From Haladaptatus sp. R4 (lineage in GTDB: Archaea > Halobacteriota > Halobacteria > Halobacteriales > Haladaptataceae): a stretch of 64,000 nt of DNA. The stretch lies in NCBI RefSeq assembly GCF_001625445.1, contig NZ_LWHG01000028.1, forward strand, positions 1 to 64,000. The letters run 5' to 3'. Positions 50,155 through 60,425 of this stretch are shown here, in pieces. The position numbers and the translations under genes are program-made. The notes beneath the pieces were generated by a model, which did not search any database, was not told the DNA's origin, and saw only the letters and a program-made list of their open reading frames with translations. Numbering within the stretch: position 1 is the first letter of the stretch; every line of letters starts with the position of its first letter.

Positions 50155-51231
50155 TTACTGGTCGCCGAGTTCGGGTGCCCCGACGTAGCCCGGCGGTTGC
50201 ACGTCGCCCTCGGTTTCCGCGTGTGCCCGGTCGCGTTTCAGCGCGCGGCGGGTGTCCGCGTTCAGTTCCACGATGTGACAGAGCGGGTTTCCGGGGTAGA
50301 CCACCGGATTCTCCAGCACACCGACGAGCAGGCCGGTGAACGGTGCCTTGACGGACTCGCTTTCGGTCTTGAACGGGTTCGTGATGGAACAGATTGGCGT
50401 CCCCTCGTACACCAGCGAGCCACGGTCGTAATGCATCTCGACGAGGCCCCCGACGTCCGCGCGGAGCCACGTCTTTTCCTTCTCATCGTCGATGACGGTT
50501 CTCCATCCCGGCCATTTCACCGGGTCGTCGGGGTGGAGATTGTACTCCGCGAAGGCGCTCATCACGCCTTCGAGCGCTCGGTCGATGAAGTGTCGTTGGA
50601 AGCGGTGTGCTTCGCCCATCTCGATGGTGATGGTCGGAATTCCCGAATCGGAGGCCTCGCGACGGAGCGTTCCGGACGAACCGTGCGAGGAGATGATGAC
50701 GTTCGAACCGAACGCGCGGGCGAGTCGGACGACTTCGGGATTCTCCATATCAGCACGAACGTGGAGCATGTTCGTCCGGCCGCGTGTGGACGTGTGGAAG
50801 TCGATACCGAAATCGCACGGTTCGAGGAAATTGCGATAGATCTGATCGGCCATCCGCTTCGCGCTCGTGGACCCCTGACGACCCGGGAACGAGCGGTTCA
50901 GGTCGCGGTCGTAGATGGGGAGGTATCGCTGCTGGGCGAGAAACCCGGGGACGTTCATCACGGGGAGACAGACGATGGTCCCGTGCAACTCCTCGTGATT
51001 CCAGTCGTAGGCGACTTCACGGACGACTTCGATGCCGTTGAGTTCGTCACCGTGGGCCGCCGCAGAGAGAAAGACGGTCGGGCCGGGATACTCTCCGTTG
51101 ACGATGGTAACGGGAATCCGAACCGGATCACCGAGATACGTCTCGCTGATTCCGTACCGGATGTTTTGGATTTCGCCCGGTTCCACGATACCGCCATTAT
51201 ACGTGAACGGCTCCGCCTCGTCCCCGGTCAT
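50155..51231 (-). CDS. succinylglutamate desuccinylase/aspartoacylase-type deacylase
   Basis: A 358-residue zinc enzyme of the M14-like AstE/AspA family. Zinc ligands are visible in AAAHGDELNGIEVVREV (His and Glu) near 59 and the later His in CDFGIDFHTSTRGRTN near 144. The substrate-binding signature YDRDLNRSFPGR lies near 107. The C-terminal part (KAPFTGLLVGVLENPVVYPGNPLCHIV) is a lipoyl/biotinyl-like barrel. The family removes acyl or aminoacyl groups from N-acyl amino acids or peptides. ATG 51231 is preferred. It is divergent from the RimK-retropepsin fusion, with a 133-base shared upstream region, which hints at a common substrate. Confidence 0.87.
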   Translation of the reverse strand: MTGDEAEPFTYNGGIVEPGEIQNIRYGISETYLGDPVRIPVTIVNGEYPGPTVFLSAAAHGDELNGIEVVREVAYDWNHEELHGTIVCLPVMNVPGFLAQQRYLPIYDRDLNRSFPGRQGSTSAKRMADQIYRNFLEPCDFGIDFHTSTRGRTNMLHVRADMENPEVVRLARAFGSNVIISSHGSSGTLRREASDSGIPTITIEMGEAHRFQRHFIDRALEGVMSAFAEYNLHPDDPVKWPGWRTVIDDEKEKTWLRADVGGLVEMHYDRGSLVYEGTPICSITNPFKTESESVKAPFTGLLVGVLENPVVYPGNPLCHIVELNADTRRALKRDRAHAETEGDVQPPGYVGAPELGDQ

Positions 51232-51364
51232 GTACACCACTCAGGGAGCACCGTATAAAAATATACTACTACACATGTCCCGTTCCGGAACTTTTCTGTG
51301 GGAGACGTTGACGCTTCAAATCAACTGGGAACGATTTAAGACCGAACGGACGAAATGTACGTTA

Positions 51365-52728
51365 ATGGATTCTAACGGCTCACCTGTACGGGTTGGGGTA
51401 CTCAGTCTACACAACAGCAAGGAAACGAAAGCGATCTGCAACGCTATCGAAGATCTCGGTCACGAACCGGAGTGGCTTCGCCACGAGAACACGGCGGTCG
51501 AAATCGAGAATGGGGAAGTCACGCTCGAACCGGATATCGACGTCGTCGCCAACCGCCTTCTGCTCTCCAATACCGAACAACCGTCCGAAGCGCTCGGACT
51601 CGCGAACATCTACGACTCTCTCGTTCCGATTCTCAACCGACCGCACGCGGTGATGACGGCCATTCACAAGTTCTCGACCGCGGCGAGTCTCACGAACGCC
51701 GGAGTCCAAGTCCCGGATGCGCTTCTCGCGCTCGACACCGACCGCCTCAACGACGGTCGGGCGAACTACGGCGAAGAGGCCGTCTACAAAACCGCCATCG
51801 GAACCCACGGCGGCGGGACGTGGAAGGTCGGTCCGGACGAACTCGTCAATCCGCGCGTCGGGGATCGCCAGGCGTTCTTACAGGACCTCATCGAGCGCGA
51901 CGAGGGGCGACACCGCGACCTTCGCGTCTACGTCATCGGCGATCAGATCGTCGGCGCGATGAACCGCTACGCGCCGGAAAACGACTGGCGGACGAACGTC
52001 GCGCTCGGCGGCGACGTCGAGGACATGACCGACGAACTGCCGGACGAAGTCGTCGATATCGCCCGGCGGGCGCGACCGACGTCGTCGGACTCGACTACGC
52101 CGGTGTGGACCTCATCGAGGGGAACGACGGCTGGTACGTCCTGGAAGTCAACCCGACGGCCGGATTCAAGGGCCTGTACAAGGCGACCGGTCGAAGCGCG
52201 GCCCCGTACATCGCGAAGGCGGCGATCGAGGCGGGTGGCGGGGACGTCGACCACCAGCGCGTGGATGAGTTGTCCGCGACGTTGGACGACTCCGTCCCGT
52301 CGTGCAAGCCCGTCAGCAGTAGTCCGGAACCGACCGAACCCGTCGTCATCGGCTACACCGAGGAAGTGCTGGTGAGCGGAACCAGCGGGTCGGAAACCGT
52401 CGTCGCGAAATCCGACACGGGTGCGACCCGGTCGAGCATCGACACGAAACTCGCCGCCCAGATCGGTGCGGGTCCCATCAAGAGCATGACCCGCGTCAAG
52501 TCGGGCAGCAGCAAGTCGAGCAAATCGCGCCCCGTCGTCGACGTCGTCATCGGCGTCGGCGGCAACCGCCACACCGTCACCGCTAGCATCGAGGACCGAA
52601 GTCACATGGACTATCCGGTCCTCCTCGGTCGGGACATCCTCGAACATTACCAGGTGGACGTGCGTCGCCGCGTCGATTCCGATGACGAAGCCGAGATGGA
52701 AGAGGAAGAGGAGCACGCCGAAGAATAA
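51365..52728 (+). CDS. RimK-type ATP-grasp ligase fused to RimB-like retropepsin (one frameshift)
   Basis: A two-part protein. Residues 1-300 are a RimK ATP-grasp ligase that adds amino acids, often glutamate, through an acyl-phosphate: VRVGVLSLHNSKETKAIC at the start, YKTAIGTHGGGTWKVG near 143, and VLEVNPTAGFKGLYKATGR in the metal site. From about 325 an aspartic-protease domain follows, with SDTGATRSSIDTKL (catalytic DTGA, near 350) and YPVLLGRDILEHYQ, as in RimB and ATP-dependent zinc protease proteins. A base is missing near 52070, in a CGGCGGGCGCG stretch. Restored length is about 454 residues. The tail is very acidic. The substrate is unknown. Confidence 0.86.
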
Positions 52729-53464: not shown

Positions 53465-54937
53465 TCAGTCGTCGTGTCCGTGGCCGTGGTCGTCATCGTG
53501 GCCATGGTCGTGGTCGTCATCGTGGCCGTGTCCGTGATGGTGACTCCGGATCGGTCGCCAGACGGCACGTCGGGTATCGAGATGTCCTTCGCCGTGATAG
53601 GTCGGGTCGTCGAGGTCGCGCGCGGTGTTTTCGAGGTGCTGGCGAACCTCGCCCGGCGTCGCGTCCGGGTTGACGCTTTTGATCAGTGCGGCAGCACCGA
53701 CGACCTGCGGCGTCGCCATGCTCGTGCCCGCTTTCCAACCGTACGCGGGAACCATGTCCGCGTCGTCGTCCTCGTCGCCCCAGTCGAACACCGTGCTCAG
53801 CACCATGTCGTACTGTGCGTTCGCGTCCTCCGGGGCGTCTTGATCGAGGTTTCCGCCGGGTGCGCTGATGTCGATGGCTTCCGCGCCGTAGTTGGTGTAG
53901 TACGCCGGTTCCCACGTCGGCTTTCGGAGGTGGTGGAGCGCCCGCTTGTAGTGGTGATGGTCGTGGTGCCAGTGGTGACCGTGGTGGTCTTCGTCTTCGT
54001 CCTCGTCCTTCTTCTCGTCGTCCCAGAGAAAGCCGATGGGACCGGTGGCGCTGATGCTCATGACGTTGTCGGCCTCGTTCGGGAGGCTGATGACGTCGCC
54101 GTCGGTATCGAGGTTCACGCTGTCGTTGCCCGCGGCCGCGACGAGGAGCGTGCCCTTCTCGTTCGCGTGCGAGGACGCCCGCTCGATGGACTCCTCCAAC
54201 AGTTCCGTATCCGAATCGTCCGGCAGCGGATACGCGCCGAGACTCATGTTCGCCACGTCGGATTCGATGTCCGCGCTGTACACCATCGCCGCGACGATGT
54301 CCCCGAACGTCGCGAACGGTCCGGTAAAGACTCGAAGCGCGACGAGGTCCGTGTCGGGTGCGGTTCCGATGACGCCGTCTTCGTTCGATCCGTCGGCGGC
54401 GATGATGCCCGAGACGTGGGTCCCGTGATCGCTGATGAGGGGGTTGAAGTCCCCGCCGTCCCCGGTGAAGTTCTTCGAGAGGTCGGTGTTGAGCGCGTGT
54501 TTCAAATCCGGATGGGTTTCGAGCGCCCCGGAATCGATGACGGACACGCGGGTCCCTTCGCCGCGCGTCCTTCGGTGGACTTGGAGCACGTTCTGTGCCT
54601 GTTTGTCCCACTGCAGGTCGTAACGCGTGTCGTGTGGGTGATGGTTCGAACGTTCGTGGTGTTCGGCCTCGACTCGGTTGAACTCCATCTTCACGTCCTT
54701 GGAGTACCGCGTTCCCGCGACCTCGCTCTCGTCACCTTTGACCACGGCGATGCCGATTTGGCTGAGATCGTGGACGACTTCGAGGCCGTCGAGGACGTCG
54801 GCCGAGCCATTACGCAGATCGACGATGTATCGGTCCGAAGTCGATTCCGCGGAAACGGTCGGGACGGTCAGTGTCAATCCACCCAGCGCAACCCCTGCGC
54901 CCTTCAAAAACGAACGGCGCGTCGGTTTTCGTGGCAT
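53465..54937 (-). CDS. Tat-exported subtilisin-like protease with His/Asp-rich tail (copy A)
   Basis: A 490-residue secreted S8 serine protease. Tat signal TRRSFLKGAGVALGGLTL is at 6-23, then an inhibitor-like propeptide (about 31-95). The triad is Asp135 (VSVIDSG), His171 (SDHGTHVSG) and Ser406 (KAGTSMATPQV), with oxyanion Asn271 (AAAGNDS). A His/Asp-rich insertion lies at about 309-330, between GFLWDDEKK and YKRALHHL. A tail from about 466 alternates His, Asp and Gly, probably binding metal. Part of the tail is encoded by short tandem DNA repeats. A second protease lies just upstream, 105 bases away. Confidence 0.91.
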   Translation of the reverse strand: MPRKPTRRSFLKGAGVALGGLTLTVPTVSAESTSDRYIVDLRNGSADVLDGLEVVHDLSQIGIAVVKGDESEVAGTRYSKDVKMEFNRVEAEHHERSNHHPHDTRYDLQWDKQAQNVLQVHRRTRGEGTRVSVIDSGALETHPDLKHALNTDLSKNFTGDGGDFNPLISDHGTHVSGIIAADGSNEDGVIGTAPDTDLVALRVFTGPFATFGDIVAAMVYSADIESDVANMSLGAYPLPDDSDTELLEESIERASSHANEKGTLLVAAAGNDSVNLDTDGDVISLPNEADNVMSISATGPIGFLWDDEKKDEDEDEDHHGHHWHHDHHHYKRALHHLRKPTWEPAYYTNYGAEAIDISAPGGNLDQDAPEDANAQYDMVLSTVFDWGDEDDDADMVPAYGWKAGTSMATPQVVGAAALIKSVNPDATPGEVRQHLENTARDLDDPTYHGEGHLDTRRAVWRPIRSHHHGHGHDDDHDHGHDDDHGHGHDD

Positions 54938-55041: not shown

Positions 55042-56505
55042 TCAGTCGTCGTGACCGTATCCGTGGTCGTGTCCGTGGCCGTAGTCGTGATCGTGGTCAT
55101 GTCCGTGATCGTGATCGTGATCGTCGTGATCGTGGCCGTGATGACCCCAACGGTCGTCCCCGATTTCCTTCCAGACGGCCCGCGCGGTGTCGAGGTGACC
55201 CTCCCCGTGATAGGTCGGGTTGTCGAGATCACGTGCCGTGTCTTCGAGGTGCTGGCGAACCTCGCCCGGCGTCGCGTCCGGGTTGACGCTCTTGACCAGT
55301 GCGGCGACGGCCGTCACTTGCGGTGACGCCATGCTCGTTCCCGCCATCCACCCGTAGTCCGGTACTCGCTCGCCGTCCTCCTCGGTGAAAATTGTGCTCA
55401 GAACGAGGTCGTAGTACCACTTCGAGTCGGTACCGATCTGGCTCTGGTCGGCGTTTCCACCGGGTGCGCTGATGTCGACCGCATCCGCGCCGTAGTTCGT
55501 GTAAAACGCCGGTTCGTACGTCGGCTTTCGGAGGTGACGAAGCGCCGCGTGGTAGTTTTCGTCCTCCGGATTCTCGTCGTCCCAACGGTAGCCGATGGGG
55601 CCGGTGGCGCTGATGCTCATGACGTTGTCGGCCTCGTTCGGGAGGCTGATGACCTCGCCGTCGGCGTCGAGGTTGGACGAATCGTTGCCCGCCGCCGCGA
55701 CCATGAGCGTACCCTTCTCGTTCGCGTACGAGGACGCGCGTTCGACGGAGTCCTTGAGAACGGCGGTGTCCGAATCGTCCGGCAGCGGGTACGCACCGAG
55801 ACTCATGTTCGCCACGTCCGATCCGATGTCCGCGCTGTACACCATCGCCGCGACGACGTCACCGAACGTCGCTTCCGGTCCGGAGAACACGCGAAGCGCG
55901 ACGAGGTCCGTTTCGGGCGCGGTGCCGGTCACGCCTTTCCCGTTCCTGTCGTCTGCGGCGATGATACCGGAACAGTGCGTTCCGTGGTCGCTCTCGACTG
56001 GGTTGAAGTCCCCGCCGTCGTCGGTGAAGTTCTTCGAGAGGTCAGTGTTGAGCGCGTGTTTCAAATCCGGATGGTCCTCGTACGCTCCCGAATCGATGAC
56101 GGACACGCGGGTCCCTTCGCCGCGCGTCTTCCGGTGAACTTGCGGGATGCGTTGTGCCTGCTTGTCCCACTGGTACTTGTAGAGCGGGTCCTGCATCCAA
56201 TGGTGCCGGTCGTGGTGGTGCCCGTGATGTTCCATCTCCGGGAACGTCACCGCCATGTCGACGTCCTTCGAGTACCGCGTTCCACTCACCTTTTCGTCAG
56301 TCCCCTTGACGACCGCGATGTCGATTTGATCGAGACGGTGGACGATGTCGAGCCCTGCCAGGTCGCTGTCCGATGTGGACCGAAGATCGACGATATAGCG
56401 GTCCTCCGACGGACTCGCGGAGACCGTCGGCATCGTCATCGTCAGTCCAGCAAGTGCCACCCCTGCACCTTTCAAAAATGAACGTCTCGTTGGTTTTTGT
56501 GACAT
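55042..56505 (-). CDS. Tat-exported subtilisin-like protease with His/Asp-rich tail (copy B)
   Basis: A 487-residue secreted S8 protease, clearly a tandem paralog of the product of 53465-54937. The Tat signal TRRSFLKGAGVALAGLTM and pro-region are alike. Asp (VSVIDSGAYEDHPD), His (SDHGTHCSGI, with an extra Cys) and Ser (AGTSMASPQVT) are all present, as is AAAGNDSS. It has no His-rich insertion near 310, where it reads DENPEDENYHAALRHL. The tail (about 455-487) is again an alternation of His, Asp, Gly and Tyr. ATG 56505 matches the paralog start. The upstream region is A/T-rich with TGAGGGAGAA repeated at 56686 and 56700. Confidence 0.91.
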   Translation of the reverse strand: MSQKPTRRSFLKGAGVALAGLTMTMPTVSASPSEDRYIVDLRSTSDSDLAGLDIVHRLDQIDIAVVKGTDEKVSGTRYSKDVDMAVTFPEMEHHGHHHDRHHWMQDPLYKYQWDKQAQRIPQVHRKTRGEGTRVSVIDSGAYEDHPDLKHALNTDLSKNFTDDGGDFNPVESDHGTHCSGIIAADDRNGKGVTGTAPETDLVALRVFSGPEATFGDVVAAMVYSADIGSDVANMSLGAYPLPDDSDTAVLKDSVERASSYANEKGTLMVAAAGNDSSNLDADGEVISLPNEADNVMSISATGPIGYRWDDENPEDENYHAALRHLRKPTYEPAFYTNYGADAVDISAPGGNADQSQIGTDSKWYYDLVLSTIFTEEDGERVPDYGWMAGTSMASPQVTAVAALVKSVNPDATPGEVRQHLEDTARDLDNPTYHGEGHLDTARAVWKEIGDDRWGHHGHDHDDHDHDHGHDHDHDYGHGHDHGYGHDD

Positions 56506-56724
56506 TCCAGTAGATATCAATACTTCCTCTGTTTAATGTTATCGGTTTCGGCAACTGTTAACGAGACACTCGAAGATAGATAATATCTTGAAAAACTTAA
56601 ATTCTAATATAATTGGGGAGGACTCAACTGTTGGGGATGGGACTAACTTTCCACGTTACTGGCGACTACGTATCCGTTATGGAGATTGAGGGAGAATAAT
56701 GAGGGAGAAAAGAACGGTCGTCGA

Positions 56725-57190: not shown

Positions 57191-58344
57191 TCAGAATCCT
57201 TTCCCGAGCAGTTCCCGGGCGATGATGTTCTTCTGTATCTCCGTCGTTCCCTCGTAGATCTGGGTGATCTTCGCATCACGGTACAGTCGTTCCACGTCGA
57301 AATCGTTGACGTATCCGGACCCGCCGTGAATCTGGACCGCTTCGTCGGCGCACTCGACGGCGGTACGCGAGGAGAACTCCTTCGCCATCGACGCCAACTG
57401 GGTCAGTTGCCCGTCGCCCTCGGAGACGCTCCACGCGGATTTGTAGGTGAGGTTGCGTGCGGCCTCCGTCTTCGTGTGCATCTCGGCGAGTTTGTGCTGG
57501 ATTGCTTGGAAGTCGCTGATGGAACGCCCGAACTGTTCACGCTCTTGGGCGTATTCGAGGGCGCGTTCGCACGCACCCTTGGCGATACCGACACCCTGTG
57601 CGGCGACGGCCGTACGGGTTTCGTCGAAGAACTGCATGAGTTGCAGGAAGCCCATACCGCGCGTGCCGACGAGGTTCTCCTCGGGGACGCGCACGTCGTC
57701 GAAGATGAGTTCGGCGGTGTCGGAGGCACGGATACCGAGTTTACCCGTGATCTTGTCGCTTCGAAGCCGTCACGGTCGGACTCGACGATGATCTGGGAGA
57801 ATCCGGCGTAGCGGTCCTCTGCTTCGGGGTCGGTCTTCGTCATGACGACGAAGAAGTCGCCGATGGACCCGTTGGTGATCCACATCTTGTTGCCGTTGAT
57901 GACCCACTCGTCGCCGTCCTTTTCGGCGGTCGTGGAGACCGAGGACACGTCCGAACCCGTGTCCGGCTCGCTGATGGCGGTACCCATGACCGCGTCGCCC
58001 GCCGCGACGGGAGCGAGGTACTCCTCCTTCTGTTCTTCCGTCCCGAATTCGCGGATGGCGTCCCCGCCGAACGCGGTGCTCGTGATACAGAGGCCGATAC
58101 CCGGATCGACGGCGAACAGTTCCTCGACGATGATGGCAACTTCGAGTGGCGAGTAGCCCGCTCCACCGTACTCGATGGGGATGTTCGCGCCGGTTAGCCC
58201 CATCTCGGCCGCTTTGTCGATGATCTCCCACGGGTACTCCTCCTTCTGGTCGTACTCCTTCGCGATCGGTGCGACCTCGTTCTCCGCGAATCGCCGCACT
58301 TCGTCACGAATTGCTTGCTGCTCTTCTGACAGTTCGAAGTCCAT
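57191..58344 (-). CDS. acyl-CoA dehydrogenase (one frameshift)
   Basis: An FAD enzyme that puts the 2,3 double bond into acyl-CoA. The start [19 protein letters not shown] is typical. The active-loop segment [16 protein letters not shown] is near 128 and [13 protein letters not shown] is near 156. After the break: [16 protein letters not shown], the catalytic-base region [24 protein letters not shown], and [17 protein letters not shown]. The frame shifts near 57765, where ACAAAG would restore [19 protein letters not shown]. Restored length is about 384 residues, normal for the family. The next gene divergently encodes the following two steps. Confidence 0.91.
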
Positions 58345-58459
58345 GTGAATGGATTACGGGGCCACGGATAAATCGTTTTGTAACCGGATATAAACTGGAA
58401 GAGAGTTTATTAGTTCACATAGAGAAACGTTGAAACACCCCCGTAACGAGGGTTCTTGC

Positions 58460-60425
58460 ATGGAGCTCGAAGATATCAACACCATAGCGGTTCTCGGCGC
58501 AGGCAACATGGGCCACGGAATCGCTGAAGTCGCGGCGCTCGCGGGATTCGACGTGAACCTGCGGGATATCAAAGAGGAGTTCGTCCAGAACGGCTACGAG
58601 GGAATCGAGTGGAGCCTCGGAAAACTGGCCGAAAACGACCAGATCAGCGAGGCTGACGCCGACGCCGCGCTGGACCGCGTAACGCCGCTCGTGGACTTCG
58701 AGGAGGCCGTCTCGGACGCCGACTTCGTCATCGAAGCCGTCCCCGAGAAGATGGAGATCAAAAAGGACGTGTACGGGGAACTGGAGGAGTACGCCCCCGA
58801 CCACACGATTTTCGCCACCAACACGTCCAGTCTCTCGATCACCGAACTCTCCGAGGTGACCGAGCGCCCCGAACAGTTCTGCGGGATGCACTTTTTCAAC
58901 CCGCCGGTTCGGATGCAACTCGTCGAAGTCATCACGGGTGCCCACACGAACGAGGACGTTCTCGACGTCACCGAGGAGTTGGCCGAGGAGATGGGCAAAT
59001 CCCCCGTCCGCGTGCGCAAGGACAGCCCCGGGTTCATCGTCAACCGCGTGCTCGTCCCCCTGATGAACGAGGCCGCGTGGATCGTCGAATCCGGCGACGC
59101 CACCATCGAGGAAGTGGACAGCGCGACGAAGTTCGACATGGGCCTGCCGATGGGCAGTTTCGAACTCGCGGACCAGGTCGGCATCGACGTCGGCTATCAC
59201 GTCCTCGAATATATGCACGAGGTGCTCGGTGACGCCTACGAACCGTGCCCGCTGCTCGCCGAAAAGGTCGAGGAGGGGAACCTCGGCAAGAAAACCGGAA
59301 CGGGATTCTACGACTACGAGGACGGCGGTGTCGATATCCCGACCGACGCCGGAAACGAGGATGTCATCCTCCGCCTGCAAGCCGTGATGGCGAACGAGGT
59401 CGGCAAACTCGTCGGCAACGACGTCGCGCCCGCCGGAGAAATCGATGAGGCGGTCATGCTCGGCGCTGGCTTCCCCGAAGGACCGGCCCGGATGGCGGAC
59501 GACGCCGGACTGTCGACGTTGCTGGAAACGCTCGAATCCCTCCACGAGGAGACGGGTTCGGAACGCTACGAACCCGCGGACTATCTCGAAGACGCGCCGA
59601 GGTCGGCGGCTTCGCCGACCCGGAAGATGACGAAGGCATCGAGTTCGAGGCCATCCGCATCGAGAAGCCCGGTGAGATGGTCGGACAAATCGTCCTCGAC
59701 CGCCCACACCGCATGAACACCATCAGCGGGGAACTGCTGGACGAACTCTCGGTCGCAATCGACCAACTGGAGGAGGACGACGAGGTCCGTGCCGTCCTCA
59801 TCACGGGCGAGGGCGACAAGGCGTTCTCCGCCGGAGCGGACGTCCAGAGCATGGCCGCGGGCGGTGCCGACCCCATCGGAGCCATCGAACTCTCGCACAA
59901 AGGTCAGGAGACGTTCGGTAAACTCGAATCCTGCTCGATGCCGGTCGTCGCCGGAATCGACGGCTACTGTCTCGGCGGCGGGATGGAACTGTCAATGTGC
60001 GCCGACCTCCGAATCGCCAGCGAGCGCTCGGAACTCGGTCAGCCAGAACACGACCTCGGCCTCCTGCCGGGGTGGGGCGGAACCCAACGCCTCCAGCACA
60101 TCGTCGGCGAGGGGCGCGCGAAGGAGATAATCTTCACCGCGGACCGCTTCGAACCCGAGACGATGGCCGACTACGGCTTCCTGAACGAAGTCGTCCCGAC
60201 CGAGGAGTTCGAGGAGAGCGCTTCGAACTGGCCACGAAACTCGCTGGCGGCCCGCCAATCGCACAGAAGTTCACGAAGCGTGCGATGCTCAAGGGATGGG
60301 AGAGCACGGAGGCCGGACTCGAAATCGAAGCCCAAGCGTTCGGCCACCTGATGGCGACGGACGACCTGATGGAAGGCATCACCGCGTTCATGGGCAAACG
60401 CGACGCCGAGTTCGAAGGCAAGTAA
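58460..60425 (+). CDS. 3-hydroxyacyl-CoA dehydrogenase/enoyl-CoA hydratase fusion (two frameshifts)
   Basis: A bifunctional beta-oxidation enzyme. Residues 1-375 are the NAD dehydrogenase (VLGAGNMGHGIAEVAALAGFDV; FATNTSSLSITELSE; MHFFNPPVRMQLVEVI), the rest is a crotonase-type hydratase (GEGDKAFSAGADVQSM; IDGYCLGGGMELSMCADLRIA; GQPEHDLGLLPGWGGTQRL). Dehydrogenase first, hydratase second is the reverse of bacterial FadB, and is known from Archaeoglobus and haloarchaea. One missing base near 59600 and one near 60220 break the frame. Restored length is about 655 residues. A strong hairpin follows the stop. Confidence 0.9.

Follow-up and report, generated by a model that had tools for sequence, protein, structure and literature searches.

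The fusion gene and its frameshift

The window, i.e., the whole stretch of 64,000 nucleotides from Haladaptatus sp. R4 that was analyzed here, contains a gene in which a RimK-family ATP-grasp ligase domain precedes a retropepsin-like aspartic protease domain and a genomically encoded glutamate tail, with a divergently transcribed gene for an AstE/AspA-type zinc hydrolase located upstream (Table 1). The original prediction placed the ligase and a DTGA retropepsin on one chain, provided that a frameshift was discounted, and both its coordinates for the gene and the frameshift itself proved correct. In the window, the ligase half and the protease half are read in different frames (51365–52075 versus 52069–52725), and GCGCGACC is found where the intact congeners (L059–L065) have GCGACC, which amounts to two extra bases at about 52071–52074. 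The same locus forms one open frame in 8 of 8 congeners, and the fusion occupies a single frame at 80 of 80 named haloarchaeal loci from many genera, which rules out that correcting the frameshift would leave two separate genes, an outcome that the original prediction had allowed for. The single-chain fusion is confirmed as a real observation, far beyond chance.

Table 1 Features of the fusion locus and their positions in the window
Feature	Position	Strand	Basis
Divergent partner, AstE/AspA-type zinc hydrolase (PF24827)	50155–51240	−	PF24827, E = 8e-48
Fusion gene, ATG at 51365, stop codon at 52726–52728	51365–52728	+	Sequence
RimK-family ATP-grasp amino-acid ligase domain, frameshift inside	51365–52312	+	PF08443/TIGR00768 on both sides of the break
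2-base insertion site (GCGCG), frameshift in this assembly only	52071–52074	+	7 intact congener sequences
Retropepsin-like aspartic protease domain, clan AA, PF05618/PF13650	52342–52674	+	Pfam and PDB profile matches
Catalytic motif DTGA, with a D that never varies among 41 or 48 aligned sequences	52414–52425	+	Alignments, sequence
Genomically encoded C-terminal glutamate tail EMEEEEEHAEE	52693–52725	+	Sequence; conserved in kind, not in sequence

For ten genes of the window a counterpart was identified in a close congener, and three of the ten are split by frameshifts, namely the fusion gene, a gene near 57760, and one broken at both 59590 and 60222. Since other genes close by are also affected, a local assembly or sequencing error appears likelier than a pseudogene as the source of the break. 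The R4 genome holds two more paralogues, of which one is intact (L003) and one is frameshifted at a different position (L002). Although these two broken copies would suit a decaying pseudogene, such decay is very unlikely, as apart from the break the window gene is 86–90% identical to the orthologue L147, the locus is intact in all congeners, and two nearby genes share the defect. A programmed frameshift is ruled out by the in-frame congeners and by the different break points of the two copies. The other split genes, both named by eye and both intact in the congener, resemble an acyl-CoA dehydrogenase (57191–58344, − strand) and a 654-residue hydroxyacyl-CoA dehydrogenase/enoyl-CoA hydratase (58430–60422, + strand), so that the gene predictions for this part of the assembly cannot be relied upon.

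Domain assignments and active sites

In profile searches, the upstream frame (51365–52075) matched PF08443 (RimK, E = 2.5e-11) and TIGR00768 (4e-29), while the downstream frame (52069–52725) matched the C-terminal part of RimK (2.7e-6) and, above the curated cut-offs, PF05618 (7.4e-11) and the aspartyl protease family PF13650 (1.9e-6). Membership in the RimK-family ATP-grasp ligases is indicated by the PF08443 score over its cut-off, the catalytic residues, and a fold match to RimK/LysX; TIGR00768 is borderline, with fusions reaching about 100–159 bits at a cut-off of 143. The strict names “RimK” and “RimB” could not be upheld, as the RimK equivalog NF007764 gave 67 of 331 bits for paralogue L003 and the RimB equivalog NF052261 gave 16 of 200 bits for the window protease half, both far under the cut-off, and the ligase falls in a separate clade. 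The protease half is assigned to the retropepsin-like proteases (clan AA, PF05618/PF13650) by its profile matches, its DTG motif, and its hydrophobic-Gly motif.

Loss of the DTG aspartate or the ATP-grasp ligands had been considered as an argument against the fusion, and neither is lost: both catalytic centers are invariant among 41 diverse orthologues. In the ligase these are K142, D248, E260, and N262, which we take to have Mg/ATP roles by homology to RimK, and in the protease the motif K348-S-D350-T-G-A, along with R388 and R422, which like K348 are basic and lie around the protease site. RloA handles polyglutamate through such basic residues (PMC12239564), and K348, R388, and R422 may be their residue-by-residue counterparts.

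An alignment of 48 sequences likewise has an invariant catalytic DTG. One paralogue carries DSGA instead, a motif that is also common among aspartic proteases. Such conservation would be needless for a pure scaffold, and both it and the DSGA paralogue make it improbable that the retropepsin half is mainly a dimerizing or stimulating subunit of the ligase with proteolysis secondary, even though RimB does raise both the ATPase activity and the polyglutamate synthesis of RimK (PMC11957791).

Structure modeling, as suggested in the original prediction, was successful for the ligase part only. In the AlphaFold2 model of orthologue L147, this part has a pLDDT of mostly 70–97 and matches the PDB entries 4iwx (RimK), 5k2m (LysX/ArgX), and 5zk6 (RimK-RpsF), whereas the retropepsin part stays at about 30–40 in two models, one of L147 and one of the domain alone (pLDDT 40, pTM 0.29). 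Because these models are of low confidence, the retropepsin fold assignment rests on sequence profiles, namely the Pfam matches, PDB profile matches to 9g59 (the best), 2pma, and 9g58 (E 1e-10 to 8e-9), and an hhalign alignment to methanogen RimB that pairs DTGA with DTGA and LLGR with LLGR (E = 4e-4, probability 36%).

Distribution, partner hydrolase, and origin

The proposed search of archaeal genomes for the same fusion showed it to be class-wide in the haloarchaea: of 145 haloarchaeal genomes, 133 have a PF05618 profile match, which nearly always lies within a fusion-length frame, and the Haloferax volcanii genome also gives a match to the fusion. In the window as at the named loci, the RimK domain precedes the retropepsin. 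Further copies reside on plasmids of Halolamina, Haladaptatus, Salinirubellus, and other haloarchaea, where the product names that are given (“RimK/LysX family protein”, “RimK family alpha-L-glutamate ligase”, and “ATP-grasp domain-containing protein”) cover the ligase only, so that the protease half goes unnamed. Elsewhere in the phylum, the PF05618 protein stands alone, with about 160–200 residues in nearly all cases, and methanogens encode ligase and protease as separate genes. A second, divergent family of stand-alone PF05618 proteins of about 180 residues occurs at other methanogen loci (among them L170 and L172), where no rimK or hydrolase gene is evident beside it. We found no report of archaeal RimK-retropepsin fusions in the open-access literature; a comparative-genomics paper on amidoligases from 2009 by Iyer and colleagues may mention RimK-peptidase associations.

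The hydrolase gene lies divergently upstream of the fusion at 72 of the 80 named loci, and three of the other 8 loci are truncated upstream. The spacing is within 400 bp at 42 loci and 1.5–4.5 kb at 26. Among the 145 genomes, 132 encode both genes, 12 neither, one the hydrolase alone, and none the fusion alone (Fisher p = 1e-16), and thus the hydrolase is also missing in 12 of the 13 genomes without the fusion, which may reflect a single deletion where the genes are adjacent. Some extra copies of the fusion have a divergent hydrolase of their own (in genomes G063 and G023 and on a Halolamina plasmid), while none was present beside the Haladaptatus paralogues examined. Outside the haloarchaea, rimB, rimK, and the hydrolase gene follow in a row in methanogens and in the same order in Salinivibrio, and the order in Vibrio nigripulchritudo is rimK-hydrolase-rimB; the window hydrolase is 32–35% identical to the hydrolases of the methanogen and Salinivibrio rim operons. 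From this gene neighborhood and co-occurrence, the AstE/AspA-type hydrolase is probably the third component of the module. These sets in Salinivibrio, V. nigripulchritudo, and methanogens comprise the same three kinds of protein as in haloarchaea but as three separate genes, with a RimK that ends in RGKG rather than in glutamates.

In a tree of the RimK family, the haloarchaeal fusions form one clade (support 100/99), and the methanogen RimK, the bacterial RimK, and the RimBK hybrid of Thioclava fall in the other, although long branches limit inference on deeper relations. The bacterial hybrids, such as Desulfotalea psychrophila DP2392, likewise unite a retropepsin and a RimK-type ATP-grasp ligase in one chain, and protease activity of DP2392 has been demonstrated on polyglutamylated RpsF (Little et al. 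2025, PMC11957791). The writer-eraser concept is therefore already established by bacterial RimBK and is not a new idea of the original prediction. The bacterial order, however, is RimB-RimK (in Thioclava RimBK the DTGA stands at residue 29) instead of RimK-RimB, the Thioclava ligase sits in the true RimK clade, and its chain lacks the C-terminal glutamate tail. The reversed domain order and the separate ligase clade indicate an independent fusion, so that the haloarchaeal form probably arose independently of bacterial RimBK and a common origin is disfavored, with the long branches as a caveat. The RimBK paper surveyed bacterial accessions only and archaea are unmentioned in it (PMC11957791); what is new here is an archaeal form, apparently built independently, that reverses the domain order, encodes its own glutamate tail, and is inherited together with a third enzyme. 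The tail, the hydrolase, and the class-wide distribution were all absent from the original prediction. An independent origin with reversed order would suggest that the coupling of glutamate ligase and retropepsin was selected more than once.

Two other known systems are comparable in part. RimA-RimB-RimK of Pseudomonas also pairs a writer with a glutamate-specific retropepsin eraser (RimB), but it is encoded by separate genes, its third partner RimA is a cyclic-di-GMP phosphodiesterase instead of an AstE/AspA-type hydrolase, and its acceptor S6/RpsF is bacterial. To our knowledge, bS6 is absent from archaea. RloA-RloB-RloC of Pseudomonas aeruginosa also combines a retropepsin with an ATP-grasp protein, and among the NCBIfam retropepsin models the window protease half matches RloA3 and RloA2 best, with 9g59 as its best PDB match; unlike the haloarchaeal fusion, this system has secreted proteases and a membrane-bound inactive transglutaminase and is encoded by separate genes (PMC12239564).

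The glutamate tail and a possible writer-eraser module

The last residue is glutamate in 76 of the 78 named fusions and aspartate in none (0/78). At least four consecutive glutamates occur within the last 25 residues in 59 of the 78, compared to 1 of 820 neighboring genes, a background that comprises the other genes around the named loci rather than whole proteomes; the 78 fusions are related by descent, and their tail counts are not independent events. Over the final eight residues, the fusions have an E:D ratio of 8.6, against 1.4 for the 820 neighbors and 1.2 for the acidic tails among the latter; just before the tail, at positions −20 to −9, the fusions are rich in aspartate (E:D 0.23). 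The comparison with the 820 background genes rules out a chance acidic tail, and the mixed GAA and GAG codons in the window tail argue against simple repeat slippage.

Haloarchaeal proteins are acidic, and the short-tailed paralogues of the fusion end only in EE (in one case GE), both of which count against the writer-eraser reading given below. E. coli RpsF, the acceptor known for RimK, also has EE at its end (PMC11957791). Bacterial RimB cuts glutamate but not aspartate and needs six contiguous glutamates, or five in some contexts (PMC11957791). The bias of the tail toward glutamate and not aspartate matches this specificity, and the encoded runs, mostly of 4–5, lie just at or under the RimB length threshold. 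No such tail is present in the RimK sequences examined from bacteria and methanogens or in the bacterial RimBK, which terminate in RGKG or PRKA instead. Glutamate-rich ends were also seen in other proteins. In three Haladaptatus genomes (L185, L192, and L195), a protein identified by eye as FtsY (the SRP receptor) has four or five glutamates at its end, which makes it a candidate substrate, and small acidic proteins with long terminal runs of glutamate or Asp/Glu are encoded at L187, L194, L191, and L196, with up to 17 glutamates in a row in L194.

On balance, the gene product is likely to be a bifunctional enzyme that both writes and erases polyglutamate, and its own tail may be a substrate. 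The N-terminal ATP-grasp domain would use ATP to extend a C-terminal glutamate by further glutamates. The retropepsin in the C-terminal half, which probably acts as a dimer, would cut glutamate runs once these are long enough, and the hydrolase, as a third component, may trim residues singly. The encoded tail would most likely serve as acceptor, docking, or length-sensing segment, so that self-tagging may occur, either alongside the tagging of other proteins or in its place. As the ligase belongs to a clade apart from characterized RimK, both the added amino acid and the acceptor could differ from those of RimK. A more tentative extension, possible but on the unlikely side, is that the ligase extends the tail of the same protein and the retropepsin cuts it back past the length threshold, such that tail length would act as an intrinsic meter or switch and nearly all haloarchaea would own a self-contained reversible tag.

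It is less likely, and doubtful, that the enzyme writes and erases solely on other proteins or a small molecule; in that case its tail would never be modified and would serve for docking, autoinhibition, or solubility. Some RimK-family enzymes glutamylate cofactors, and the cofactor models MptN and CofF also match the ligase, at lower score. A few Haladaptatus proteins that end in EEEE, such as the FtsY above, could be substrates, and bacterial RimK modifies a separate protein, RpsF (PMC11957791). However, simple acidity does not explain a glutamate-specific tail that is retained while the flanking sequence diverges, and such a tail is missing from the bacterial and methanogen sequences examined. 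Less probable still is the synthesis of a free poly-α-glutamate metabolite, primed on the encoded tail and recycled by protease and hydrolase; we know of no such polymer in haloarchaea. In vitro, E. coli RimK does make free poly-α-glutamate, and RimB stimulates this synthesis (PMC11957791).

The favored reading, i.e., a polyglutamate writer-eraser, would give haloarchaea a near-universal writer and eraser, possibly with the acceptor, in one chain, together with a conserved third enzyme. Haloferax volcanii and similar genetic models would then allow direct tests of reversible amino-acid tagging in archaea. Protein polyglutamylation has been little studied in archaea, and we found no report of it in haloarchaea in the open-access literature. 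Downstream of the fusion gene, the window also encodes two tandem Tat-signal subtilisin-like proteases, named by eye (53465–54937 and 55042–56520, both on the − strand), whose C-termini carry long His/Asp/Gly repeats (HGHDDDHDHG) that are possibly metal-binding.
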